Shown piece after piece: positions 4,941-32,995 of a stretch of DNA of 32,995 nucleotides. Each line of letters starts with the position of its first letter. Positions within the stretch are counted from its first letter, which is position 1. The notes under the pieces were generated by a model. It was not told the DNA's origin. It made no database searches and was given only the letters and a program-made list of their open reading frames with translations. This DNA comes from Thermococcus sp. (lineage in GTDB: Archaea > Methanobacteriota_B > Thermococci > Thermococcales > Thermococcaceae), in the NCBI GenBank assembly GCA_015523195.1, contig WAKU01000054.1, forward strand, positions 1 through 32,995, read 5' to 3'. A program made the position numbers and the translations under genes.

Positions 4941-5519
4941 TTAAACTTTCCCCGCGATGTTCTCTATTATCTCCTCCACCTTTCTCCTCAGCTCTTCAAT
5001 GGTTCCCTCGTTAACGATGACGTAATCGGCCAGGTTTTTTAGCCTGCTCGTGTGGTAGAGCCTTTCCTCGGCGTCATCCATCTCCCTGAAGTCGGCGAAG
5101 CTTTTGATGCCCCTGTCCTTCTCGGCCCTCCTTTTCATCAGTCTCTCGAACCTTATCTCGGGCTTTGCCTCGACGTAGATGACCGTTCCGCCGAGCCTTT
5201 TTATAGCCTCTATTTCCTCCTTTGAACGGACGCCGTCTATGACGATGTTTTTACAGTTCCTCTTCTTGTCAACGGCAAGCCGTATGAGTACGTCCCCGCC
5301 GTATTTCTCCTTGAGGTACTTCCCGAGTTCTATCAGCCTGTCGCGCGTCGGCTCGGCCCTCTCTGGCAGTTCCGGAATCCACGAGTAGTCTGAGACGTTG
5401 TGGGTCAGCAGGTCTATCAGCGGGTCGCTGCAGGAAACCCTGCAGAAGCCCTTCTCCTCAAAGAACTTTGCGACCGTAGTTTTTCCCGCGGCGATCTTCC
5501 CTACCACTCCGATTATCAT
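4941..5519 (-). CDS. UPF0200 P-loop protein (dephospho-CoA-kinase-like)
   Basis: This 192-residue protein starts MIIGVVGKIAAGKTT, a Walker A motif at residues 7-15, and contains the VIDGVRSKEEIE segment and Arg-rich LID-like region (RFERLMKRR) typical of archaeal UPF0200 proteins, relatives of nucleoside monophosphate and dephospho-CoA kinases. The substrate is not established. The ATG at 5519 is chosen because GGAGGCGGAGAAG precedes it. It overlaps the stop of the upstream gene at 5516, so the two are translationally coupled. A TTTAAA inside its 3' end may serve the DUF104 gene. Confidence 0.8.
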   Translation of the reverse strand: MIIGVVGKIAAGKTTVAKFFEEKGFCRVSCSDPLIDLLTHNVSDYSWIPELPERAEPTRDRLIELGKYLKEKYGGDVLIRLAVDKKRNCKNIVIDGVRSKEEIEAIKRLGGTVIYVEAKPEIRFERLMKRRAEKDRGIKSFADFREMDDAEERLYHTSRLKNLADYVIVNEGTIEELRRKVEEIIENIAGKV

Positions 5520-6322
5520 CTTCTCCGCCTCCAGTAGCGCCATATCAGGTTTGCCCCATCCGTTGATTCCATAAGGCCCTCGTACGTTAGCTCAGCCACA
5601 AAGCGGATGAGGGCATCGTAATCAACCATCGTGGGAGACTCGAAGCCGAAGAGGTACTTAATTTCAAAGAATCCGATGTGCAAAAATCTGAAGGGGTTCA
5701 TGAGGGCGGTTTCGCTTCTCCATTTCAGCCCAAAGGGAAAGTCAGCGAGGACGAGCTTCGCGTTTCTCTCCCGGGCGAGTTTCACGAGTTTTTCCTCGTC
5801 CGGAAAGAGAACCTCTTTGGGCTCTCCTTCCACCGGCTCGTAGTCCAGCTTTGGGAAAGCGTACCTTATCCCAACGGCTCCGTAGGGTAAGCCCAACTTC
5901 TCGGCGAAGCCGAGCAGGGCTCTCGCGTTGAAGCTGAGGAAGACGAGTGTTTTAACACTTCCTTTCACAGACGGCCACTTCCTCGGCGGGAAGCGCTTTT
6001 CCGCCTCGATTATCGGCAGTAAAAACTCCAGTTCGGTGCCTTTCACGAGCTCTTCTGCTTTGCTGAGCTTCCTCCTCTTTATCGCGAGGTCGAGGTTCGA
6101 GTAGACCGTCACCTGCTTTACCCCAAGCCTCTCCCTGAGCTTTCCAATGACGAGGCTGTTGCCTATCACAACGCTCTTGTCCGTCCTGTCGTGGGCTATT
6201 ATGAAGAGCTTGTCGCCTTCCCCGTCATAGCGAACCTCGTCTATCCTGAACGGACTTTCCGGGAGGTTGTGCTCCCTCCTGATCTGCCTGACCAGTTTGA
6301 CTATCTCATCGGCCGTGAACAT
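5516..6322 (-). CDS. Conserved hypothetical protein with KH-like N-terminus
   Basis: This 268-residue soluble protein is not recognised with certainty. Residues about 45-85 contain SVVIGNSLVIGKLRERLG followed by a beta strand, which resembles the VIGxxGxxIxxL turn of KH RNA-binding domains (inference). The middle part (TLVFLSFNARALLGFAEKLG) looks like the start of a Rossmann or PP-loop unit, but without a clear SGGxDS motif. The C-terminus is rich in Arg and Trp. It is the promoter-proximal gene of a two-gene operon with the UPF0200 kinase-like gene (four-base overlap). A TATA-like TTTTTAA at 6345-6353 and no ribosome binding site suggest a nearly leaderless mRNA. Confidence 0.6.
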   Translation of the reverse strand: MFTADEIVKLVRQIRREHNLPESPFRIDEVRYDGEGDKLFIIAHDRTDKSVVIGNSLVIGKLRERLGVKQVTVYSNLDLAIKRRKLSKAEELVKGTELEFLLPIIEAEKRFPPRKWPSVKGSVKTLVFLSFNARALLGFAEKLGLPYGAVGIRYAFPKLDYEPVEGEPKEVLFPDEEKLVKLARERNAKLVLADFPFGLKWRSETALMNPFRFLHIGFFEIKYLFGFESPTMVDYDALIRFVAELTYEGLMESTDGANLIWRYWRRRR

Positions 6323-6360
6323 AACGGAGAAGGGAGGGGAAGAACGTTAAAAAGCCTTCC

Positions 6361-6813
6361 TTAGAGGTTGCCTATTATCTCCTCTCCCTCGATTGTTCTC
6401 TCGCAGTAGTGGCAGCGGAGCTTTAGCGGTTCTCTGCTTTCCACTCTGAATTTTGGCTTTACGTACTCGTGGTTGCTGACGCAGTTCGGGTTTGGACAGC
6501 TGAGGATTCCGACTATCTCGTCCGGGATTTCCACCTTGAACTTCTCCACTATCTTGTAGTCCCTCACGATGTTCACGGTAGCCATCGGCGCTATCAGGGC
6601 TATCTTGTTGACCTCTTCCTCGCTCAGGTAGCGCCCCTCGACCTTAACGATGTCCTTCCTTCCGAGCTTTTTGCTCGGGACGTTCGAGGCTATGAGCAGG
6701 GTCCCACCGTTGGGCCTCGTGAGGCCGAGTATCTCTATTACTTTGAGCCACTTCCCCGCTGGGATGTGGTCTATGACAGTCCCCTCGGGAATAACCTCAA
6801 CCTTCAGCTCGGG

Positions 6814-6816
<3 letters not shown>
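6361..6816 (-). CDS. pyrI: Aspartate carbamoyltransferase regulatory chain
   Basis: The 151-residue product is the nucleotide-binding, zinc-containing regulatory subunit that joins PyrB trimers in aspartate transcarbamoylase, the first committed step of pyrimidine synthesis. VIDHIPAGK near the N-terminus is the effector-binding start. The C-terminal zinc site has Cys107, Cys112, Cys135 and Cys138 (CPNPNC and CHYC). GGAGGTG lies six bases before the ATG. pyrB is upstream on the same strand, but the usual tight junction is interrupted by about 134 bases (see the repeat entry). Both genes probably still share the pyrB promoter. Confidence 0.95.
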
Positions 6817-7917
<1,101 letters not shown>

Positions 7918-11047: not shown

Positions 11048-11071
11048 ATTTCCCTCCTCCCGGAGGGTATA
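11048..11071 (+). repeat. 24-bp direct repeat, left copy
   Basis: The sequence starts ATTTCCCTCCTCCC and ends GGAGGGTATA, and is identical over 24 bases to 11847-11870. It includes CCTCC and GGAGG arms that can pair. It also flanks the TATA box of the minus-strand membrane-protein gene. Confidence 0.85.
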
Positions 11072-11122
11072 ATACTGGGGGGCTCAGGGCATACATCCCC
11101 TTCGAGAAGGTTGGTAAGAAGA

Positions 11123-11131
11123 GTTAAATAT
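11123..11131 (+). promoter_or_regulatory. TATA box of the UPF0175/DUF3368 pair
   Basis: GTTAAATAT stands about 36 bases before the ATG at 11163. Short arms AGAG and CTCT lie on either side of it, which may be an autoregulatory site, but the arms are only four bases long. Confidence 0.45.
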
Positions 11132-11162
11132 GCTCTCGTTCAACATTAATCTGGTGGAGGGA

Positions 11163-11411
11163 ATGGAGATAGTCATTCCAAATGACGTTATTGCCGCCAT
11201 GAAGCTCCCCAAGGATGAAGTTGAAAGGGAGCTGAGACTGGATTTGGCTGTTATCCTCTATCAGCGAGGTGTTCTTCCCCTTGGGAAAGCGGCTAAGCTC
11301 GCAGGAGTGACCAGAAGGGAATTCCTTGAGGAACTCGCTAAGAGAAGGATCCCGAGACACTACACCGAAAGGGAACTGGTGGAGGATGTGGCCTTTGCCC
11401 GTGGTGAGTAA
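11163..11411 (+). CDS. UPF0175 family antitoxin
   Basis: This 82-residue protein starts at ATG 11163 after GGTGGAGGGA (an upstream in-frame ATG at 11130 overlaps the TATA region). It has the UPF0175 pattern: an N-terminal strand MEIVIPNDV, a helix ending in LAVILYQRGVLPLGKAAKLAGVTRREFLEEL (a helix-turn-helix-like segment, about residues 37-63) and an acidic C-terminus. UPF0175 proteins are DNA-binding antitoxins normally paired with DUF3368 PIN-like toxins, as here. The toxin frame overlaps its 3' end by about 26 bases. Confidence 0.85.
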   Translation: MEIVIPNDVIAAMKLPKDEVERELRLDLAVILYQRGVLPLGKAAKLAGVTRREFLEELAKRRIPRHYTERELVEDVAFARGE

Positions 11412-11811
11412 CTCGACTCCATTAATTCATCTCGCTAAAATCGGGAGGCTTGAACTTCTGAGGGAGTTCTTTGGCGAGATCTTAATCCCTGAAGCCGTTT
11501 ACAGAGAATGCGTTATTGAAGGTGACGATAGCGAAGACGCCAGGGCGATTAAAAACGCCGAATGGATTAAAGTGGAGAGGATAGCTGACGAGAGGCTAAA
11601 GAGGTCCCTAATGATCGAGCTGGATGAAGGCGAGAGTGAAGCGATAGTCCTGGCCCTTGAAAAGAGTGCTGAACTTGCCTTGATAGATGATTACGATGGA
11701 AGGGAAGTTGCTAAAGCTCTCGGTCTCAGAGTGACCGGAACCATCGGCATTCTCCTTAAAGCCAAGTTCACCGGGAGGATAACCAGTCTACTCCGAAAAC
11801 CGGCATTATAA
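11386..11811 (+). CDS. DUF3368 PIN-like toxin
   Basis: The product is about 141 residues. It carries VSNSTPLIHLAKIGRLELL near the start, LDEGESEAIVLA in the middle and ALIDDYDGREVAKALGL with VTGTIGILL near the end. This is the conserved DUF3368 pattern, a PIN-fold RNase family that cleaves RNA when freed from its antitoxin. The start is uncertain: ATG 11386 immediately follows GGTGGAGG, while GTG 11401 or 11404 gives the more usual N-terminus (VVSNSTP). It overlaps the UPF0175 antitoxin gene. The module sits between two perfect 24-bp direct repeats. Confidence 0.83.
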   Translation: MWPLPVVSNSTPLIHLAKIGRLELLREFFGEILIPEAVYRECVIEGDDSEDARAIKNAEWIKVERIADERLKRSLMIELDEGESEAIVLALEKSAELALIDDYDGREVAKALGLRVTGTIGILLKAKFTGRITSLLRKPAL

Positions 11812-11846
11812 CGGCAAACCAAACAAGCATCATTAAGCCCGTGTCC

Positions 11847-11870
11847 ATTTCCCTCCTCCCGGAGGGTATA
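11847..11870 (+). repeat. 24-bp direct repeat, right copy
   Basis: Identical over 24 bases to 11048-11071. It lies between the DUF3368 toxin stop and the promoter of the HEPN gene, so the two copies bracket exactly one toxin-antitoxin pair (about 800 bp). Confidence 0.85.
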
Positions 11871-11883
11871 GCAAAGGACGAAG

Positions 11884-11894
11884 GGGTTAAATAC
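11884..11894 (+). promoter_or_regulatory. TATA box of the HEPN/MNT genes
   Basis: GGGGTTAAATA is placed about 30 bases before the GTG/ATG starts at 11914 and 11923. This implies a leaderless or very short-leader mRNA, in line with the lack of a ribosome site. Confidence 0.5.
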
Positions 11895-11922
11895 ACCCAA
11901 TCCAAAACTTTCCGTGATTGTG

Positions 11923-12337
11923 ATGTTCAAGCGGGTCGAGTACGAGAGGTGGATGAAGCAGGCGGAGAAGACCCTTCGCTCCGCCCTCAGGGATTTGGAA
12001 GGAGAGGATTATGAGTGGGCGAGCTTTAAGGCCCAGCAGGCGGCGGAGCTGGCGGTTAAGGCACTCCTCAGGGGAATGGGCTTCGCTCCCATCGGGCACT
12101 CCATAACGAGACTTCTCAGAAACCTGCGCGATGAGGGCGTTGAGGTTCCAAAGGGAGCTGTTCCACAGGGCTATGGAGCTCGACAGAAACTACATAGCTC
12201 CCCGCTATCCAGACGCCTACCTGGAGGGTTCCCCCTTCGAGTACTATTCTGAGGACGTGGCCGAGGAGATGATAGGCTATGCCGAAGAAGTCCTTAACTT
12301 CGTTAAAAGGATGGCAGAGCGTCTCGCCGGAGATTGA
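11923..12337 (+). pseudogene. HEPN-domain protein, frameshifted
   Basis: The first frame gives a HEPN-type helical protein (WMKQAEKTLRSALRDL, FKAQQAAELAVKALL, GHSITRLLRNL) up to about residue 77. It then runs into nonsense and stops at 12252. The expected continuation (LFHRAMELDRNYIAPRYPDAY and FEYYSEDVAEEMIGYAEEVLNFV) is in the next frame to 12337. Removing one G from the GGG at 12153-12155 (AAGGGAG to AAGGAG) restores a continuous 137-residue HEPN protein. HEPN proteins are RNase toxins kept in check by MNT nucleotidyltransferases, and an MNT-like gene follows. The lesion could be a real mutation, a sequencing error or, less likely, programmed frameshifting. Confidence 0.8.
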
Positions 12338-12344
12338 GGGTTTT

Positions 12345-12695
12345 GTGAAGAGGATAGTTGACTACTTCAACGGTGACGTTACTGTTATCCTCTTCGGCTC
12401 CAGGGCGAGCGACTACGACCTGATAGTGATCTCCAAAAAGCTAACCGGAAACTTCTTAGCAAGGACGAAGCCGCTCTACGAGCTCAATGAAGATTTTCTG
12501 CCCGTTGATGTGCTTGCCTACACACCAGCGGAGTTTCTCAAAGCGTTAGAAAACCTCTCTCCTTCAGCCCTCGATGCCATGAGGGAGGGAATAGTTCTCC
12601 ACGACAACGGCTTCTACGAAGTCGCTAAGAGGCACTTTGAGGAGTTGAAGCGGAAGGGGGTTAAGAAGGAAAGGTACTGGGTGATGAGAACTTAG
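12345..12695 (+). CDS. MNT-type nucleotidyltransferase with shortened active-site loop
   Basis: The product resembles minimal nucleotidyltransferases: a leading helix, VTVILFGSRA, SDYDLIVIS, then PVDVLAYTPAEF and an Asp-rich helical end. The family needs Gly-Ser, 9-13 residues, then Asp-x-Asp. Here only three residues (Arg-Ala-Ser) separate GS from DYD, so roughly eight residues of the loop seem deleted in frame. Adenylyl transfer is therefore doubtful. The start is uncertain: GTG 12345 (after TGAGGG) is chosen, while ATG 12279 would overlap the HEPN frame and include SPEIEGF, which looks like authentic N-terminus. It partners the damaged HEPN gene just upstream. Confidence 0.7.
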   Translation: MKRIVDYFNGDVTVILFGSRASDYDLIVISKKLTGNFLARTKPLYELNEDFLPVDVLAYTPAEFLKALENLSPSALDAMREGIVLHDNGFYEVAKRHFEELKRKGVKKERYWVMRT

Positions 12696-12894
12696 TCTTT
12701 CGCTCCTCGGATCTATTCCTGCCCGAAGCGCTTTAGGCTGAAGTTGGGAATTGTTCCCGTCGTCCCAGAGCGTGCGGGTGTTAGCGGTATTGACCAATTC
12801 CCATCTTTATCAAGAATATACCGCAGGACGAGGGTTGGTGAAAGTGATCAGAACCCCCAATACCAAGAAAGTCTCTAAGCTCTGAGAGCTGGGC
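12696..12894. other. Intergenic region without a convincing gene
   Basis: Two small inverted repeats are visible: GCGGTAT/ATACCGC (12784-12790 and 12818-12824) and AGCTC TGA GAGCT (12878-12890). The second lies just past the stop of the minus-strand EamA gene and could form a hairpin in its 3' end. Nothing else is supported. Confidence 0.4.
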
Positions 12895-13311
12895 TTACAG
12901 CGACACCAAAATCGCCCCGATGACGATGAGAACTGCCCCGAGTGCCGTTTTCAGGTTCATTCTGCTCCCGAGGATAATCCACGACAGGAATATCGCGAGG
13001 GCAACGCTGGTCTTGTCTATCGCGACGACAGCTGGAACTTTTCCGTTCTTTATCGCCATGAAGTAGAACAGCCACGAGAGCGCCCCTGCCAGCCCGGAGA
13101 GGGCTATCAAAAGAAGTGCCCTGCCGTCGATTTCACCCACGCCGGTTGAGCCGCTTGCGAGGGCAACGCCCACTAAGAAGAGCGCCATTATAACGGCCCT
13201 CACCGCGGTTGCGAGGGTGGGGTTGACGTCCTTGAGGCCGAGCTTCCCGAATATCGGGACGAGAGAGGCGAAAAAAGCGGCCAAAAGAGCGTAGATTACG
13301 TACTCCCTCAT
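12895..13311 (-). CDS. EamA-family (DMT superfamily) transporter, half-size
   Basis: This 138-residue protein is almost entirely hydrophobic with about five helices. It shows the half-EamA pattern: VIYALLAAFFASLVPIFGKLGL at the start, AVVAIDKTSVALAIFLSWIILG in the middle, and a last helix ALGAVLIVIGAILVSL. Half-size EamA proteins act as homodimers moving small metabolites; the substrate is unknown. The ATG at 13311 follows AGGTGACTGGA. Directly upstream on the same strand is an 80-base sequence able to fold into a long stem, so translation or transcription may be controlled by RNA structure. Confidence 0.85.
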   Translation of the reverse strand: MREYVIYALLAAFFASLVPIFGKLGLKDVNPTLATAVRAVIMALFLVGVALASGSTGVGEIDGRALLLIALSGLAGALSWLFYFMAIKNGKVPAVVAIDKTSVALAIFLSWIILGSRMNLKTALGAVLIVIGAILVSL

Positions 13312-13323
13312 TCCAGTCACCTA

Positions 13324-13403
13324 AGGGGGTAATAACCCGCCCAAGTTCATCGGCTCCGCCTTCGGCGGCACTCCCCGGGCGTTGATAGTTGGGTATTCCC
13401 CCT
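13324..13403 (-). other. Highly structured leader candidate upstream of the EamA gene
   Basis: Nested complementary blocks are visible. GGGGG (13325-13329) pairs with CCCCC (13398-13402), and the ATA and CCC next to it (13332-13338) pair with GGGTAT (13391-13396). GCCC (13339-13342) pairs with GGGC (13377-13380), and CCGCC (13356-13360) with GGCGG (13364-13368) around a three-base loop. On the minus strand the fold would end about ten bases before the EamA ribosome site. It could be a riboswitch-like leader, an unrelated small RNA, or a DNA-level palindrome. No known riboswitch consensus was recognised. Confidence 0.5.
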
Positions 13404-13422
13404 AAAAGCCTTTCGAAAAGTT

Positions 13423-13578
13423 TCAGCAGACGATGGGTTCTTCACGGTTTTCCCCGTACCCCTCTGGCTCCCCCTCATATTTTCTTTCTCTCTTGACGAT
13501 GAGGTAGTAGATGAGCGCCCCGATCAGCGTCAGAAACAGCGCCACCAAGATCCAGATGATCTTCTCCGTCTCGGGCAT
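13423..13578 (-). CDS. Short PLDc_N-like membrane protein
   Basis: This 51-residue protein starts MPETEKIIWILVALFLTLIGAL and has one or two hydrophobic segments followed by YYLIVKRER and an acidic tail ending in Cys. The Trp-x-(n)-Gly-x-Leu-Ile-Tyr-Tyr-Leu pattern is that of PLDc_N, the membrane segment found alone or in front of cardiolipin-synthase-type proteins. The role of stand-alone forms is unknown. The ATG at 13578 is preferred over longer forms that would overlap the TATA-like GTTTTTAAC (13621-13630). GTGATAAGAG is its probable ribosome site. Confidence 0.6.
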   Translation of the reverse strand: MPETEKIIWILVALFLTLIGALIYYLIVKRERKYEGEPEGYGENREEPIVC

Positions 13579-13630
13579 TCTCTTATCACATACCATCACC
13601 GATGGAAATTTGGAAGAGGGGTTAAAAACT

Positions 13631-14977
13631 TCATCCCCTGAGCTTCTCGCACTTCTCAAGCCACTCCTTGAGAACGTCCTTCAGCTTCGGCTGGCCGATC
13701 TCCTCGAGCTCGTACTTGACGCGAACGGCAGGCTTGTTGAGGTTCATGAACCTGCGGAGGTCAACGGGCGTTCCAATAACGACCACATCGGCATCGGCGT
13801 TGTTTATGGTCTCCTCAAGCTCCTTGATCTGCTTCTCCCCGTAGCCCATGGCCGGGAGTATAACGTCGAGGTGGCTGTACTTCTTGTAGGTGTCAACGAT
13901 CGAGCCGACGGCGTAGGGCCTCGGGTCTATTATCTCCTTGGCCCCGAACTTCTTCGCTGCTATGTAACCGGCACCGTACTTCATGCCGCCGTGGGTAAGC
14001 GTTGGCCCGTCTTCCACAACTAAGACGCGCTTGCCCTTGATGAGCTCCGGCTTATCCACGAAGAGCGGCGAGGCACCGTCGATAACGATGGCGTTCGGGT
14101 TGATCTTCTCGATGTCCTCGCGGACCTTCTGGATGTCGTCGCGGTTGGCTGTATCTATCTTGTTGATGATTATCACGTCAGCGCTCCTGAAGTTGGTCTC
14201 ACCGGGGTGGTACTTGACCTCGTGGCCGGGCCTGTGCGGGTCTGTAACCACTATCCAGAGGTCCGGCACATAGAACGGGAAGTCGTTGTTTCCTCCGTCC
14301 CAGAGGATTATGTCCGCTTCCTTCTCGGCCTCGCGGAGGATCTTCTCGTAGTCAACGCCCGCGTAGACGACCATGCCCCTCTCGATGTAGGGCTCGTACT
14401 CCTCGCGCTCCTCGATGGTGCATTCGTATTTGTCGAGGTCTTCGTAGGTGGCGAAGCGCTGGACAATCTGCTTCCTTAAATCGCCGTAGGGCATCGGGTG
14501 CCTTATCGCGACGACCTTGTACCCCATCTCCTGGAGCAGCTTAGCGACCTTTCTGCTGGTTTGGCTCTTTCCGCAGCCGGTTCTGACCGCTGTAACCGCT
14601 ACCACAGGCTTGCTGGACTTGAGCATCGTGCTCTTAGGCCCGAGCAGCCAGAAGTCGGCTCCAGCGGAGTGGGCTCTCGAAGCGAGGTGCATGACGTGCT
14701 CGTGGGAAACATCGGAGTAGGCGAAGACTACTATGTCGATGTCGTGCTCCCTGATTATCTTCTCCATCTCGTCCTCGCTCCATATTGGAATCCCGTTCGG
14801 GTAGAGTTCTCCTGCCAGCTCCGGCGGATATGTCCTGCCCTCTATGTCCGGGATCTGCGTAGCCGTGAAGGCCACAACCTCGTATTCCGGATTGTCCCTG
14901 AAGAAGACGTTGAAGTTGTGGAAGTCCCTGCCAGCGGCCCCGAGAATTAGAACCCTCTTCCTCCTCTTCTCAGGCAT
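13631..14977 (-). CDS. cpgS: Cyclic 2,3-diphosphoglycerate synthase homologue
   Basis: This 448-residue cytosolic P-loop protein belongs to the family that closes 2,3-diphosphoglycerate to the cyclic anhydride with ATP, a thermoprotectant route first found in methanogens. The N-terminal domain begins with RVLILGAAGRDFHNFN. Walker A is GCGKSQT (134-140). Further conserved parts are WDGGNNDFPF, IINKID and PTLTHGGMKYGAG. Whether the Thermococcales enzyme makes cDPG is not shown by sequence. The ATG at 14977 is chosen with GAGGTGAGG ahead. A TATA box lies about 50 bases upstream, so the mRNA has a short leader. Confidence 0.85.
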   Translation of the reverse strand: MPEKRRKRVLILGAAGRDFHNFNVFFRDNPEYEVVAFTATQIPDIEGRTYPPELAGELYPNGIPIWSEDEMEKIIREHDIDIVVFAYSDVSHEHVMHLASRAHSAGADFWLLGPKSTMLKSSKPVVAVTAVRTGCGKSQTSRKVAKLLQEMGYKVVAIRHPMPYGDLRKQIVQRFATYEDLDKYECTIEEREEYEPYIERGMVVYAGVDYEKILREAEKEADIILWDGGNNDFPFYVPDLWIVVTDPHRPGHEVKYHPGETNFRSADVIIINKIDTANRDDIQKVREDIEKINPNAIVIDGASPLFVDKPELIKGKRVLVVEDGPTLTHGGMKYGAGYIAAKKFGAKEIIDPRPYAVGSIVDTYKKYSHLDVILPAMGYGEKQIKELEETINNADADVVVIGTPVDLRRFMNLNKPAVRVKYELEEIGQPKLKDVLKEWLEKCEKLRG

Positions 14978-27211: not shown

Positions 27212-27325
27212 AGTAGAAATTTCGTATTTGTGAAGTGAAAAAAAGCGGAGTAGCTTACAATCCGGTGGGATCCACCATTGAGATGTGAAGTTTGTTGAAG
27301 ACCACGCAATTGGGGGATGCTTGAA

Positions 27326-28123
27326 ATGAGACGTTCCGCTGCCCTTTCACTTCTCATCCTATTCCTGCTGGTGCAGTCTTATGCGGCGGTTGCCGGGGCA
27401 CCATTAGCCTGGAGGGGAGACTTTGTAGTGCTTGGAAAGATCAACGCAGGGTATACCTTCACCCTGACGAACCTGACCTACGAGGACAACGGTTCGATTT
27501 ACACCGCCGTTCTGTGGCTTAAAATCACAAGGTGTGTGAACCTCAACCTTTCCTGCCCGAGGACAAAGAGGGTCTCTTTTGTGGTTAAGAAGGACACCAA
27601 CACATTCATCCTCGATGGGAAGCCCGCGTTCTTCGCCTTTTACTGGGCCGGATATACTCTTTCCCGAACTTTCTACAACCTCGGCAACGAGCTTAAACCA
27701 TCGAGGACCGAGATATACCTCCACAACAGCAGCGAGGGAAACCGTATAGGATGGGGCGTGGATCTTGAGGGACGTCCGAGGATTATCGAGAAGTGCACGG
27801 CGTTTTCGATACCGCAGGCCAATGGGAAGTTCCTGAACCAGAGCCCTAAGTGTGTAAGGGCAGGGCCCCGGAACTTCACCACGGACATCGTTTTTAAAGG
27901 CCCCTACCCTGTCACCGGTGAGGTTTATTACAGCTCGGATCCCTTTGGCATTGCAGAAGATCATCCCGTGCTGATAAACTTTGACGTGGTAGACTCACCG
28001 CAGGCTAAGAGCTTTCTCAGATCTGTGAAGGACATCCCCGGAAATAGTCCGCTCAAGCTTTACCTGGCCGGGCTCGCTGCTGCCGTCCTTTTAGGCCTGC
28101 TCCTCTGGAGGTGGAGGAGTTGA
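27326..28123 (+). CDS. Exported protein with C-terminal membrane anchor (ABC operon)
   Basis: This 265-residue protein has an N-terminal signal helix (SAALSLLILFLLVQSYAAVAG). A large beta-rich outer domain follows, with four cysteines (about 71, 78, 161, 179) that could form two disulfides. One C-terminal helix (LYLAGLAAAVLLGLLLW) ends with RWRS. It is not a typical substrate-binding lipoprotein: no lipobox. No family is recognised. GGGGGAT lies before the ATG at 27326; an ATG at 27317 is possible. It is the first gene of a four-gene operon with an ABC permease and ATPase. Confidence 0.7.
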   Translation: MRRSAALSLLILFLLVQSYAAVAGAPLAWRGDFVVLGKINAGYTFTLTNLTYEDNGSIYTAVLWLKITRCVNLNLSCPRTKRVSFVVKKDTNTFILDGKPAFFAFYWAGYTLSRTFYNLGNELKPSRTEIYLHNSSEGNRIGWGVDLEGRPRIIEKCTAFSIPQANGKFLNQSPKCVRAGPRNFTTDIVFKGPYPVTGEVYYSSDPFGIAEDHPVLINFDVVDSPQAKSFLRSVKDIPGNSPLKLYLAGLAAAVLLGLLLWRWRS

Positions 28124-28917
28124 GATCGGTAAAGTTCGTTGGGGTTGAACTCAGGTCAATGCCCCAGTTTATCTCCATCTTGGTCTCCGCCCCGGCAATC
28201 TTGGTCTACATCGTGTGGAACAGACTCTCCAGTGCGACCGTTGTCACAGGATCCTCCGTCTTCCCCCTTCCCCCAAACCACGATCTTCAGGCTCAGGTGC
28301 TCGCCAACCTCACTAAGGACACCAGCATCTTCGTATCTTTTGACCTTGCACAATGGAAGGCGTTTTTCAACGCGGTTTCAGCAGCTGTGGTGTTTGATTT
28401 CATTCTCGGTGGCATTCTCGGGGTCTTCATCTTTGGGGTTCCCATAGCGAGGGGAACCGTGATACACGACATCGCCGCACTGGGAAGTAAGGGAAGAGTA
28501 CTTGCCGTGAGAACCCTCTTTTTAGTCCTCTGCGCCACTTTGCTCTCATCTCTCACCGCTGTTTTTCTGTACTACCTGCCACCCGGGTTCGGGGTATCAC
28601 CTGATGTCAGGTTCTTTTTCGTCCTCCTCGGAACGTCATTCCTCTCTATACTCTCCTCCGCGTTTCTAACTCTCCTCCTTACGGCCCTGTCCCGGGATCT
28701 GGTGGTTCCGGTTTTAGGGGTTTTTACGGTCTTCGTGGGCATCCTTGCGGGCGGGAATTTTGCCCGCCTGTTGCTTCCTTTTAAGGATCTCACGTTTATA
28801 CTTTGGACTCATTCCCACTTTGGTCACCCCGGCGATTACCTGTACGCGGGGTTCCTCTTATACATCGTTCTCAGTGTACTGGCGGTTAAGGCCTTTGAGG
28901 GGGGTGATTTCTATTAG
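28120..28917 (+). CDS. ABC-2-type transporter permease
   Basis: This roughly 265-residue protein has six hydrophobic segments. Between the second and third is a coupling-helix-like stretch (ARGTVIHDIAALGSKGRVLAVRTLFL) typical of ABC-2 exporters, where polar residues contact the ATPase. One larger outside loop follows the first helix. The start is uncertain: TTG 28120 has GGAGGTG at proper distance and overlaps the previous stop (TTGA), and GTG 28111 is the alternative. With the ATPase at 29313 it should make an exporter. The cargo is unknown. Confidence 0.75.
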   Translation: MRSVKFVGVELRSMPQFISILVSAPAILVYIVWNRLSSATVVTGSSVFPLPPNHDLQAQVLANLTKDTSIFVSFDLAQWKAFFNAVSAAVVFDFILGGILGVFIFGVPIARGTVIHDIAALGSKGRVLAVRTLFLVLCATLLSSLTAVFLYYLPPGFGVSPDVRFFFVLLGTSFLSILSSAFLTLLLTALSRDLVVPVLGVFTVFVGILAGGNFARLLLPFKDLTFILWTHSHFGHPGDYLYAGFLLYIVLSVLAVKAFEGGDFY

Positions 28918-29347
28918 GAAGGTCTTCTTGGTCCTGTTTGTGGTTGCTTCACTGCTCTCCGTTGGAACAGCATGGGGGCTCTATCTCCACGCTTCGTCAT
29001 CCCCAGTTGGGGTGGAAGTTCTGTTCCAGTTCCCAGCGACTGGAAAAGGGTTCAACATGGTTCAGGCGGCCAACAAGGAGATCGTGCTCCCCTTAACTGG
29101 GGAGTATTCGGTTGATATGAGGGGCAACGCGGAACTTTACATCCAGACGGCTTCAAAACTCTATAAGAACCCAGTGAAGATCAGCATTAAGGGAAGCAGG
29201 GTTGTCAGAGTTATAATTCTCAACCAGAGCTCTGATGTTCGCGTCGAGTTCCAACACGAGGGGGCGCCCACCTATGCCCTTCCACTGGTTGCCATAGCTC
29301 TTTCGGGGGTGATTGGCTTTGCTGTTGGAATGCTCAAATTTGAGTAA
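28904..29347 (+). CDS. Small protein with two membrane helices (ABC operon)
   Basis: This 147-residue protein has an N-terminal helix (VFLVLFVVASLLSVGTAWGLYL), an outer beta-rich domain of about 85 residues and a C-terminal helix (LPLVAIALSGVIGFAVGML). Its topology repeats in smaller form that of the first gene of the operon. The GTG at 28904 overlaps the permease stop by 14 bases; GAGGGGGGTGA lies on top of it, so an ATT at 28913 would actually be better spaced. No family is recognised. It may be an accessory subunit of the exporter (inference). Confidence 0.65.
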   Translation: MISIRKVFLVLFVVASLLSVGTAWGLYLHASSSPVGVEVLFQFPATGKGFNMVQAANKEIVLPLTGEYSVDMRGNAELYIQTASKLYKNPVKISIKGSRVVRVIILNQSSDVRVEFQHEGAPTYALPLVAIALSGVIGFAVGMLKFE

Positions 29348-30116
29348 GTCATACGGCAATGTAAAAGCACTGCAGAACGTCTCATTCTCCCTTGCGGACG
29401 GGCTGTCCCTAATCTTGGGCCCCAATGGAAGTGGGAAGACGACGTTTTTGAAGATACTCTCCAAGATCATCGAGCCGGATGATGGAAGCATTGTCCTCAG
29501 GGGCAGGAATTACAAGGAGTACCCGCCTCATAAAATTGGATTTTCGTTTGAGAAGACTGTCATGCTCCCCAGGGTTAAAGTCAGGGACTACTTGGAGGCC
29601 GTTGCGGAGTATCGTGGCTTGGATAACGTTGATGAGGTTGTCGACATGTTTGGGCTCAGAGAATACCAGGGGGCAAGGTTCAAGGAGCTATCTCAGGGAT
29701 ACAAACGGAGGTTTTTGGTAGCAGCTGCCTTCGTGGGAAAGCCCGATGTTGTTTTCTTGGACGAACCGTTCAGCAACTTGGACGTGATCTCAAAGGTGGA
29801 GCTAAGCAGGACGTTTCAGGAAATGAAAGGGGAGGTCAGCATCGTCATAGTTTCCCACATAATCTCAGGGTTGAGGAACTTGGATTCATTGGTTCTGCTC
29901 CACAACGGAAGGGTTGTGGTGAACAGAGTAGGGGATAGGGCTAAGACCGTAGGGGGCTTTAGGGCCGTCTTCCAAGACGGATCGGTGGTGGAAGATGATG
30001 TTGGGGAGCTCATGAAGCGGATCAGGGAAGGAAAAGAGCTTGCCCGTATTGAACCGATAACCCCGGAAGACGTGATATACGAGACGCTGAGAGGCAAGGA
30101 ACGTAGGCTCCAGTAG
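29313..30116 (+). CDS. ABC transporter ATP-binding protein
   Basis: This roughly 267-residue nucleotide-binding domain has Walker A GPNGSGKTT (about 36-44), the signature LSQGYKRR in place of the usual LSGGQ, Walker B VVFLDEP, and the switch His in IVSH. A C-terminal tail of about 50 residues (FRAVFQDGSVVEDDV and ITPEDVIYETLRG) is like those of ABC-2 exporter ATPases. The start is uncertain (TTG 29313, 29319 or 29325), with GGGGGTGAT just upstream. It overlaps the previous gene by about 35 bases and ends the operon. Confidence 0.88.
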   Translation: MALLLECSNLSKSYGNVKALQNVSFSLADGLSLILGPNGSGKTTFLKILSKIIEPDDGSIVLRGRNYKEYPPHKIGFSFEKTVMLPRVKVRDYLEAVAEYRGLDNVDEVVDMFGLREYQGARFKELSQGYKRRFLVAAAFVGKPDVVFLDEPFSNLDVISKVELSRTFQEMKGEVSIVIVSHIISGLRNLDSLVLLHNGRVVVNRVGDRAKTVGGFRAVFQDGSVVEDDVGELMKRIREGKELARIEPITPEDVIYETLRGKERRLQ

Positions 30117-30166: not shown

Positions 30167-30217
30167 CTGTAAGCTTACAGTGAGAGCCCTCAATGTCTGC
30201 GCGGACGTGAGGGTTCT
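30167..30217 (+). terminator. Palindrome and hairpin after the ABC operon
   Basis: CTGTAAGCTTACAG (30167-30180) is a perfect 14-base palindrome. It is followed by AGAGCCCTCA (30183-30192), which pairs over ten positions (one G-U) with TGAGGGTTCT (30208-30217). The loop between them is itself able to fold. A terminator or processing structure is possible; it could also be a small RNA. T-runs lie earlier (30121-30136). Confidence 0.4.
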
Positions 30218-30287
30218 GATCCACCATTTCTGATGAACCTCGAAAAAGCTAAGTATCAAACGAGAGAAATAGAAATTGGTGACAGAA

Positions 30288-30695
30288 ATGTGTGGCTATT
30301 ATGAGAGCATTTCTGGGTTCCGGTACTGGGATGCCAAAGCATGGAAACAATACATCCAACAAAACATTGCACCGTTATACCCAATAACCACTACGCTCCT
30401 TGAAGTTAGGGGCGAACTTGCCCCGTACACCGGTAATTCCCTTGACGTAATCACAAATTCAAGAAGAGAACTACTGCCGTTTCTCGCAGGCGGGATTAAG
30501 GACGGGGATTACTCGAAGTACAGCCTTGCAAAACTTACCCGGCTTATCTACGGAATTTATGTAGATCCTCGTGAATTCTCAAGTGCCGTCTCAAGCTTGG
30601 GAGAAGAGGGGTTAAGTGAAGTCGTTGTTAAAGCAGAGAAAAAAGGAGAATTCCGTTTTTCTTCGCTTGATGAGCGGTCTAAATCGGCTAAGTAG
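30288..30695 (+). CDS. Hypothetical protein, first gene of the right-end island
   Basis: This 135-residue protein starts MCGYYESISGFRYWD at the ATG at 30288, with GGTGAC five bases upstream. It is soluble and mostly helical, without recognised motifs. Codons are visibly A/T-richer than in the genes to the left, which suggests later acquisition. Its 3' end overlaps the next gene by 80 bases in another frame across an A6 run (30639-30644). The two may be one gene split by a single-base shift, or genuinely overlapping genes. Confidence 0.5.
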   Translation: MCGYYESISGFRYWDAKAWKQYIQQNIAPLYPITTTLLEVRGELAPYTGNSLDVITNSRRELLPFLAGGIKDGDYSKYSLAKLTRLIYGIYVDPREFSSAVSSLGEEGLSEVVVKAEKKGEFRFSSLDERSKSAK

Positions 30696-31512
30696 CCACG
30701 TGCTCGAACTTGCAGATATTGGCCCTTCCGAAATCTCAATCCCGTCTTCTGACGAGATAATCAAACAGCCGGAGAAAATACTGGACGTCCTTAAGGAATT
30801 TTACAGATTCAGTATTTCGCTCAGTGCAAATCACAACTACTACACATTCTTTATTGTCAGCACTAGGGGAACACACTGGAAAGCACTAAGAGAGGGTTAT
30901 CACAAACTGGAGGAGAATCTAGACGGGATACAGGAATTCTTGGGATTAGAAGAGATATTTATTCCCGAAACCGGAAAAGAAGACGTCCAGAGAGATTACA
31001 CAATCTGGAGCCATTCGAGGAATGGCATTGCGGACAGCATTTACTGGATGCAGTTTGGACTCTGGGGACGCTTCAACTTTGAAGTGGAGACCGAAATAAA
31101 CAAGCCTATCCAAGATGCGCTCAAATACATAACCAAGAATCCCGAGGACTTAGCAAAAGACCATAGAAGACTCGTGAAAGAGACTCTGGGAGATCCAAGG
31201 GAGATACATATTGGAAATGAGCGGTTTTACCCGAAGGATAGCTATGACCTGAAAATCGAGGGACTGTGGATAACGGATTGGCCAAATGAAACGTTGATAT
31301 CCGACGCCAAATTCACCAATGCGGCGGGTGTGGCTAGGGATGTGATTATACGCGAACATTCGAAACCCAAACTTTCTCTTATAGACTTCCTTGACAAACT
31401 TGGGCCGTATGTGTTCACAGGGTACGGGGAGATTTCAAGACATCCAAAACACAAGGGGTCCCTCAAATACTACGGGAACATCCCAATGAACGCCGTCTGG
31501 TGGTTGGGATGA
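30616..31512 (+). CDS. Hypothetical protein, second gene of the right-end island
   Basis: This 298-residue protein is read from the GTG at 30616, five bases after GAGGGG; an ATG at 30670 would give 280 residues. It is soluble, with aromatic-rich segments (NHNYYTFFIVSTRGTHW, ADSIYWMQFGLWGRFNFEVE). A Lys/His-rich C-terminal half ends NAVWWLG. No domain is recognised. Codon use is A/T-rich like its neighbours. Its TGA overlaps the next gene's ATG (ATGA), so translation is coupled and the two products probably act together. Confidence 0.6.
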   Translation: MKSLLKQRKKENSVFLRLMSGLNRLSSHVLELADIGPSEISIPSSDEIIKQPEKILDVLKEFYRFSISLSANHNYYTFFIVSTRGTHWKALREGYHKLEENLDGIQEFLGLEEIFIPETGKEDVQRDYTIWSHSRNGIADSIYWMQFGLWGRFNFEVETEINKPIQDALKYITKNPEDLAKDHRRLVKETLGDPREIHIGNERFYPKDSYDLKIEGLWITDWPNETLISDAKFTNAAGVARDVIIREHSKPKLSLIDFLDKLGPYVFTGYGEISRHPKHKGSLKYYGNIPMNAVWWLG

Positions 31513-32995
31513 ATGAGCAAAGAGATGAAACTAAAAGAAAATCAAAATATCACAGAGAACGAAAGGAAAGGGAAAGACGGGAGGAAACGGCTTCCCATCA
31601 CCCCACACATGCCACACAAGAACCCAAGATAGAAAAGCTTAGGAATCACACTCCAAAGGAGGGCAAAGCCCAACAAGAGTCACCTGAAGGTATTGAGCAC
31701 ATCTCAAAATCGGTAGTACAAGTAAATGAGCCTTACAAAGTTACCATCCCAAAAGTACTGCTCTCCACCCCAACAATCGAGTATGACCTGATCAAAATGG
31801 ATACCGAGTATTTTATCAAAAAGAAGAAGCAGAGGGTACAGGTACCAACCATCAAAATAAACGCTCCTATCTTGAAATTTCACAAGATATCCATGGATAG
31901 CAATGTTACAATGACAAAGAAAGTCAAGAGGTTTATGAAAATCCCCAAGATAATGCTCCACGCCCCAGTTTTTGTCTTTCAAGACAAAACCCTTGACTTA
32001 GTGATAGACATTAGTCCTAATCCTAACCCCCTTTTAAGTGACATTTCACAGCGCCCAATGGTTCAAGAAAAGGAAACTCAAAGGGCCATTCAGGCAATTT
32101 CAGTTCCGAAACACGAGACTAGACCCCTTGAAACTACCCAAGAAACTGAAGCCGTAAGTTTGTCTGAAACAGGCAGTAGCAACTGGATTATTGAAACAGA
32201 GACAGAGGACTTCATAAAAGCTCTCTTCGGTGTTAGCAGTCAAGAACTAAGAGAACCTAACGCCGCAATCATACTTTTCAAAGACGTTAGAGACGAGGGT
32301 TATATCCACCTCTTTGAAAAGCTCCTTTTGAGACTCCAGAGAGAAAAGGGAAAAACAGGAAAGGTCAAAAAACTGACTTTGAGTGATGAAGATTGGAACA
32401 AAGAAGAAATTGAAAGGTGGCTTGACGAGGGCGGTATCATATTCATTGAAGTCGCCAATAGGGAAATCCTTGATAAACTGACAAAGAGCGACATAGCAGA
32501 CAGGTTATGGGCAATTTTCTCGAAGGGGGATGGAACAGTCGTGTTTCACACCAAAGACGATGATACTTTCTCCGCAATCAATGAGCTTGTCCAAGAGCTG
32601 AACTGGGACAAACTGGGATTAAAGCCCGAGATCTTCAAGATACTTGCCAGAGAACTGTCGTTTGAGGAAAAACTGAGAATTATAGAGCATATTTATGGTT
32701 TCGTGCCCCTCCCTGACCTGATGCCTGGTTCAAAAGTCTCATGGATTGTGAATACTGCTGAGAAACTATACTTGAAAGTTCTAAAACGGATTATGCACCA
32801 ATATGAACCGTTCTTCCCCGTCAGATCTTCAGATGATGAAAGTGCCGAGCATGTCTTGGCAAAATATTTCATAATTCACACGCTTATTAAACGGCTCCAG
32901 AGAGAAGGGAAACTACCTTCCCGTTTACAGGATGTTGAATGGGATAAGGTTAGGACAATAATAGAAACCGAGCCTGAGAGTTATCCAAGGCCAGA
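31509..32995 (+). CDS. Large hypothetical protein with N-terminal repeats, 3' end outside window
   Basis: The frame is open from the ATG at 31509 to the right edge (495 codons). Residues 1-70 are highly charged and probably disordered. Residues about 78-165 hold three imperfect units of about 32 residues with the pattern V-x-(V/I)-P-x-I-x-L-x-(A/T)-P-x-(I/L)-x-(Y/F) followed by Asp and a Lys-rich turn. A mixed alpha/beta domain follows (about 215-390; AAIILFKDV, GGIIFIEVA, TVVFHTKDD), without a P-loop. Near the edge, Glu-Ser-x-x-His and a following Lys, then TIIETE, recall the start of a PD-(D/E)XK nuclease. This last point is inference and the domain is incomplete. Confidence 0.72.
   Translation, partial: MNEQRDETKRKSKYHRERKERERREETASHHPTHATQEPKIEKLRNHTPKEGKAQQESPEGIEHISKSVVQVNEPYKVTIPKVLLSTPTIEYDLIKMDTEYFIKKKKQRVQVPTIKINAPILKFHKISMDSNVTMTKKVKRFMKIPKIMLHAPVFVFQDKTLDLVIDISPNPNPLLSDISQRPMVQEKETQRAIQAISVPKHETRPLETTQETEAVSLSETGSSNWIIETETEDFIKALFGVSSQELREPNAAIILFKDVRDEGYIHLFEKLLLRLQREKGKTGKVKKLTLSDEDWNKEEIERWLDEGGIIFIEVANREILDKLTKSDIADRLWAIFSKGDGTVVFHTKDDDTFSAINELVQELNWDKLGLKPEIFKILARELSFEEKLRIIEHIYGFVPLPDLMPGSKVSWIVNTAEKLYLKVLKRIMHQYEPFFPVRSSDDESAEHVLAKYFIIHTLIKRLQREGKLPSRLQDVEWDKVRTIIETEPESYPRP

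Follow-up and report, generated by a model that had tools for sequence, protein, structure and literature searches.

What do the three overlapping open reading frames at the right end of this Thermococcus contig encode, and do their products act together? The window, meaning the whole stretch of 32,995 nucleotides analysed here, is contig C54 of a 1.71-Mb genome in 115 contigs that is 86.6% complete. An earlier note on this DNA had described three consecutive, coupled genes of no recognisable family in an A/T-richer island, and comparison with relatives resolved these into two genes, here called A and B.

Reading frames and gene A

The three frames indeed exist as described, with overlaps of 80 bases (ORF1/ORF2) and ATGA (ORF2/ORF3), and the difference in composition was confirmed, the GC content being 0.436 in the A-B stretch and 0.543 in window positions 1-30100. 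The features are as follows:

30240 to 30287, forward strand: putative promoter and ribosome-binding block of A-B, kept in all four aligned sequences
30288 to 30695, forward strand: ORF1, by homology the N-terminal portion of A (homology over about 118 residues; out of frame after about 30640)
30616 to 31512, forward strand: ORF2, which supplies the rest of gene A, with homology starting at about 30640
31509 to 32995, forward strand: ORF3, gene B, truncated by the contig end after 495 of about 600 residues

Searching the order with ORF2 gave matches in 11 of 94 genomes, and of the loci fetched from those genomes, seven contained one continuous frame of 376-420 aa, with an ORF1-like start and an ORF2-like end. 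When the DNA of the window was aligned with that of three close relatives, at a mean column identity of 94%, a one-base length change in the run of A near 30640 set it apart from them. Judged from this alignment, ORF1 and ORF2 are therefore a single gene A, split in the window copy or in its assembly, and the 80-base overlap results either from the frame being broken or from an error in assembly. The single A frame in relatives, together with the change in the A-run, thus ruled out the reading of three genes; a broken frame in a MAG can pass for an additional gene. Programmed frameshifting at the A-run may be considered as another origin of the split, but the relatives L020 and L021 are unbroken there. 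The relative L022 is also broken, at places other than the A-run.

Intact relatives of gene A encode about 350-475 aa; helices are predicted over about 300 residues, and the C-terminal part varies. Foldseek searches against PDB and viral structures returned nothing at E under 0.001, and the best VIA score was Z 3.7, which is no fold match; this does not show that the fold is new. The statement that the products belong to no recognisable family also held, as ORF1-ORF3 gave no credible family in Pfam, NCBIfam, PHROGs, PADLOC or PDB sequences. With PADLOC, ORF2 and ORF3 had no match and ORF1 matched a cyclase model at a non-credible E of 0.023, while profiles of A, of the middle of B and of the end of B found nothing credible among PDB sequences. 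We recognised no description of A-B in searches of the open-access literature.

Upstream of the pair, the block contains a BRE/TATA-like element, TCGAAAAAGCTAAGTAT (30240-30256), and GGTGA (30278-30282), names that we infer from the known archaeal promoter layout. Conservation in the four aligned sequences begins at about 30223-30240, and the sequence upstream of this is not conserved.

Domains of gene B

Gene B encodes about 510-780 aa in most relatives, and 601-603 aa from its ATG in L020 and L021. In relatives, one codon of the nuclease-type domain always specifies Asp; the window contig ends after the first two bases of this codon, which leaves the catalytic core of the domain outside the window. 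Three regions can be delimited in the window copy:

31740 to 32010, forward strand: predicted N-terminal low-confidence region, in which a repeat of 32-33 residues, VPxIxLxxPxIxFxxxxLDxxI in type, occurs about three times (positions taken from relatives; repeat length about 32 residues within the window's branch)
32211 to 32789, forward strand: predicted AAA+-like domain without Walker A (VIA, Foldseek and motif scan)
32838 to 32995, forward strand: start of the putative PD-(D/E)XK-type domain, where a helix carries ExxxHxxxK and the H is encoded at 32850

The model of B from L021 had a mean pLDDT of 66, with values under 50 for residues 27-228, and both its AAA+-like and its C-terminal domain were confident. 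Residues 233-425 matched AAA+ chains with a VIA Z of about 10, and Foldseek also returned AAA+ proteins. The matches included ORC, RFC and Rif2; the AAA+-like part scored Z 10.1 against 7pxc_D (177 residues, 5.5 A) and Z 10.1 against Rif2 4bj6_A (139 residues, 3.4 A). The fold searches of the products thus yielded an AAA+-like fold for B and none for A. A Walker A motif (G4GK[ST]) was found in 0 of 42 B sequences, so that B was not classed among the ATPases.

The C-terminal domain of B carries, in order, the ExxxHxxxK helix, then E, D and [E/D]x[E/K]T. Among the 35 B sequences having the C-terminal end (of 39; L118, L026, L022 and L101 were left out by choice as near-copies or cut), the H, the D and the E or D were present in all 35 and the T in 34, and the helix retained its E in 33 and its K in 34. 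The third catalytic position is E in 28 and K in 7. Residues 444-557 of the L021 model, mostly with pLDDT over 90, follow an alpha-beta-beta-beta-alpha-beta order, as read by eye. B thus resembles the PD-(D/E)XK superfamily in its succession of secondary structures, its D, its [E/D]x[K/E] and its helix with E, H and K; it differs in having E for K in 28/35 and in lacking a nuclease match by sequence, as neither a profile search of PDB sequences nor Pfam returned one for the C-terminal domain. In the fold search of B, the matches were filled by the AAA+ part. BamHI also has ExE. Taken together, motif and model make a nuclease architecture well supported and cutting activity a prediction, and the E in place of K at the third position means that activity may be altered or lost. 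The nuclease-like end that the earlier note attributed to the last protein therefore holds for the B family, but in the window the catalytic core lies beyond the contig end.

Distribution and insertion site of the A-B pair

Among 51 archaeal loci, 36 have intact A and B adjacent on the same strand in the order A-B (among them L026, whose B has its N-terminal part split off), 10 are broken and 5 are cut by contig ends. Homologues thus keep the same order, and the gap between A and B ranges from -62 to +26 nt, except in L096 and L091 (contig end). In L096, A and B are separated by a gene of 208 aa that weakly matches TFIIE-alpha/wHTH. Over 35 of the 36 intact pairs, L107 being excluded for masked bases, the A distances track the B distances (r 0.88, against at most 0.18 after permutation), a correlation that shared descent alone could produce. 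Furthermore, Ka/Ks of 0.11-0.33 in the pairs tested indicates purifying selection.

The distribution of A-B is patchy. Gene B was detected in 17 of 115 genomes of the window's phylum and gene A in 29 of 398 genomes of another archaeal phylum (that of L006), so that the pair is present in Thermococcales and in a second phylum. At 15 of the 16 loci measured, the GC content of A-B is below that of its flanks.

In the window and in L020, L021 and L022, A-B lies to the right of moaA- and trm5-like genes, and in the latter three it lies to the left of the clamp-loader genes rfcL/rfcS, whereas the window contig ends before the rfcL side; these gene names are our presumed assignments. Elsewhere in the genus, A-B was present in none of the 20 trm5-like to rfcL stretches fetched, which were taken from 54 genus genomes with an rfcL match and include one (L181) without a detectable trm5-like gene. 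The gap at these junctions varied from 14 nt to several kb, and the cargo in the relatives (L181-L200) comprised HepT-like, nucleotidyltransferase (NTP_transf_2), AAA_14/DUF4143, KaiC-like and other genes, ten proteins having been tested with Pfam and the others assigned by eye. Since both the gap and the cargo differ among genus genomes, this junction is a hotspot for insertions, conflict-type genes among them.

Two occupants of this hotspot bear comparison with A-B. The AAA_14/DUF4143 proteins (PF13173/PF13635) share with B an AAA-type domain followed by a nuclease-like C-terminal domain, as the DUF4143 domain is nuclease-like, whereas B has no Pfam match and no Walker A, and has N-terminal repeats and the partner A. 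The HEPN-MNT pairs are likewise two-gene operons at this site, but their proteins are unrelated to A and B and much smaller.

The insertion site and the low GC content would also suit a mobile-element cargo, namely a plasmid or provirus remnant in which B served as a replication or partition nuclease. We consider this improbable, as no A-B relatives were found in viral contigs with the A and B profiles, none in plasmids and phages with B as the only query, and no integrase gene was seen adjoining the window copy. Similarly, the fold matches to ORC, RFC and Rif2 and the rfcL gene adjoining A-B in L020-L022 might suggest a DNA repair or replication accessory, in which a nuclease would be combined with an ORC/Rif2-like pseudo-ATPase and the place beside rfc would have functional reasons. 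However, rfcL is a neighbour at one insertion site only, all 20 other stretches lack A-B, most A-B loci other than the rfcL-side ones have different neighbours, and the patchy distribution also speaks against such a role, which we regard as quite doubtful. As a separate observation, rfcS is longer in L021 (1621-5535, 1304 aa) and L022 (12234-14522, 762 aa) than in L020 (329 aa), with segments that by eye look like inserted inteins.

An ABC-type operon stands between the trm5-like gene and A-B in the window (27317-30116) and in L021. In L199, the operon occupies the same junction (5012-7838) with no A-B there, and the operon and A-B are thus independent inserts. The earlier note had also placed a structured boundary of the unit at 30167-30217. 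A strong hairpin is real at about 30180-30218 (z -3.95 on a hand-picked 51-nt stretch, -1.65 on 81 nt), but the 30167-30217 structure is common in full only to the window and L021, which has the same left flank, and it is missing at that place in L020 and L022, both of which carry A-B, so it does not bound the unit. An RNA family was ruled out as well, Rfam giving one sub-threshold match located elsewhere. Over 23 bases, its core agrees in 22 with the 3' end of the L022 trm5-like gene, which makes the hairpin a likely recombination scar from the insertion of the ABC operon.

Proposed function and accessory genes

We read the locus as an accessory operon of two genes, broken in this copy and probably an anti-mobile-element nuclease cassette, and give this reading a probability of about one half. 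The insertion hotspot, the patchy distribution and the decay of the pair make a role in defence or conflict plausible, and A-B is most likely a system of this kind. For the joint anti-virus or mobile-element activity that had been suggested, the coupling and the conserved gene order stand, and the defence part is plausible on the grounds of hotspot, distribution and decay just named. In the proposed mechanism, B would be the nuclease effector, with its N-terminal repeats, an AAA+-like scaffold without an ATP-binding P-loop, and the C-terminal PD-(D/E)XK domain. A, the helical partner translated just before B, would likely be a sensor or restraint in complex with it. The complex would rest inactive until an invader or stress signal is recognised, either by A or by A with lineage-specific helpers such as the proteasome-like Thr protease of some relatives, whereupon B would cut nucleic acid. 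With a nuclease-type effector, a scaffold of pseudo-ATPase type, a partner that matches no fold and, sometimes, a proteasome-like protease of its own, A-B would be a specific candidate open to testing, present in two archaeal phyla, that current defence libraries overlook. One article (PMC12988326) describes archaeal immunity as poorly charted.

One helper candidate is c2, a proteasome-like Ntn hydrolase found in 6 of 94 genomes of the order, in all six beside A-B, and outside Thermococcales in 10 of 398 genomes, where it lies beside A-B or B in four and not in the other six. Copies beside A-B or B are found in L117 (5250-6086), L112, L111, L113, L115, L120, L081, L083, L006 and L139; none was found in the window's own genome, which is 86.6% complete. 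Like the proteasome beta and HslV-type hydrolases, c2 shows a marginal match to PF00227 (22.9 against a cutoff of 22.4 bits in one member, the other tested member falling below), weak PDB matches to proteasome beta, and residues T2, D22 and K36, invariant in 7 of 7 aligned sequences, which we take to correspond to T1, D17 and K33 of the proteasome. It differs from them as a stand-alone gene beside A-B in only some lineages, and c2 is not known to have been described as a stand-alone archaeal protease. Between c2 and A, five loci (L112 at 11061-11996, L113, L115, L117 and L120) contain a family of 304-311 aa, c7, for which no credible family match was obtained. Another gene, HExxH-like by eye, lies just upstream of A in L101 (7000-7884), L104, L105 and L106, and overlaps the start of A in three of these four loci; the L101 protein contains a HELCHH stretch and is possibly a zincin-type protease.

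These genes allow a more specific scheme, a protease-gated archaeal immune nuclease, in which A would sense the invader, the N-terminal repeats of B would restrain it, and a protease cut in B would free a pseudo-AAA+/PD-(D/E)XK nuclease. The cutter would be c2 in some lineages and the HExxH-type protein in others, and in lineages without either protease, such as that of the window, a host protease or A itself would cut B. We regard this scheme as a long shot.

As for defence genes around the homologues, the hotspot holds HEPN-MNT and AAA_14 genes, but outside it such genes near A-B loci are few, and the PADLOC survey of neighbours is weak. PADLOC models matched numbered 105 among 143 A-B neighbours (of 197; 150 drawn, 7 judged c2 or c7 removed) against 16 among 149 control genes (of 182; 150 drawn, one long gene omitted), the control positions being hand-typed round numbers and not random. 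Of the 25 models listed for the neighbours, 20 were mutually overlapping methyltransferase models, and each model was matched by at most 2 of the 143 genes.

We also weighed a toxin-antitoxin-like addiction pair, in which B would be a nuclease toxin and A its antitoxin, the pair persisting without protecting the host. Consistent with this are the tightly coupled two-gene operon with A first, the HEPN-MNT pairs at the same trm5-like/rfcL hotspot, and the decay of A-B in 10 of 51 loci. On the other hand, A and B are both large, at about 350-475 and 510-780 aa, several lineages carry extra genes (proteases, wHTH, GHKL ATPase), and A is kept where B is broken (L115) or missing (L099), so that we consider an addiction pair unlikely.

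Finally, in L094 a gene for a 958-aa sacsin/GHKL ATPase with a NOV_C end follows immediately after B (11662-14538).
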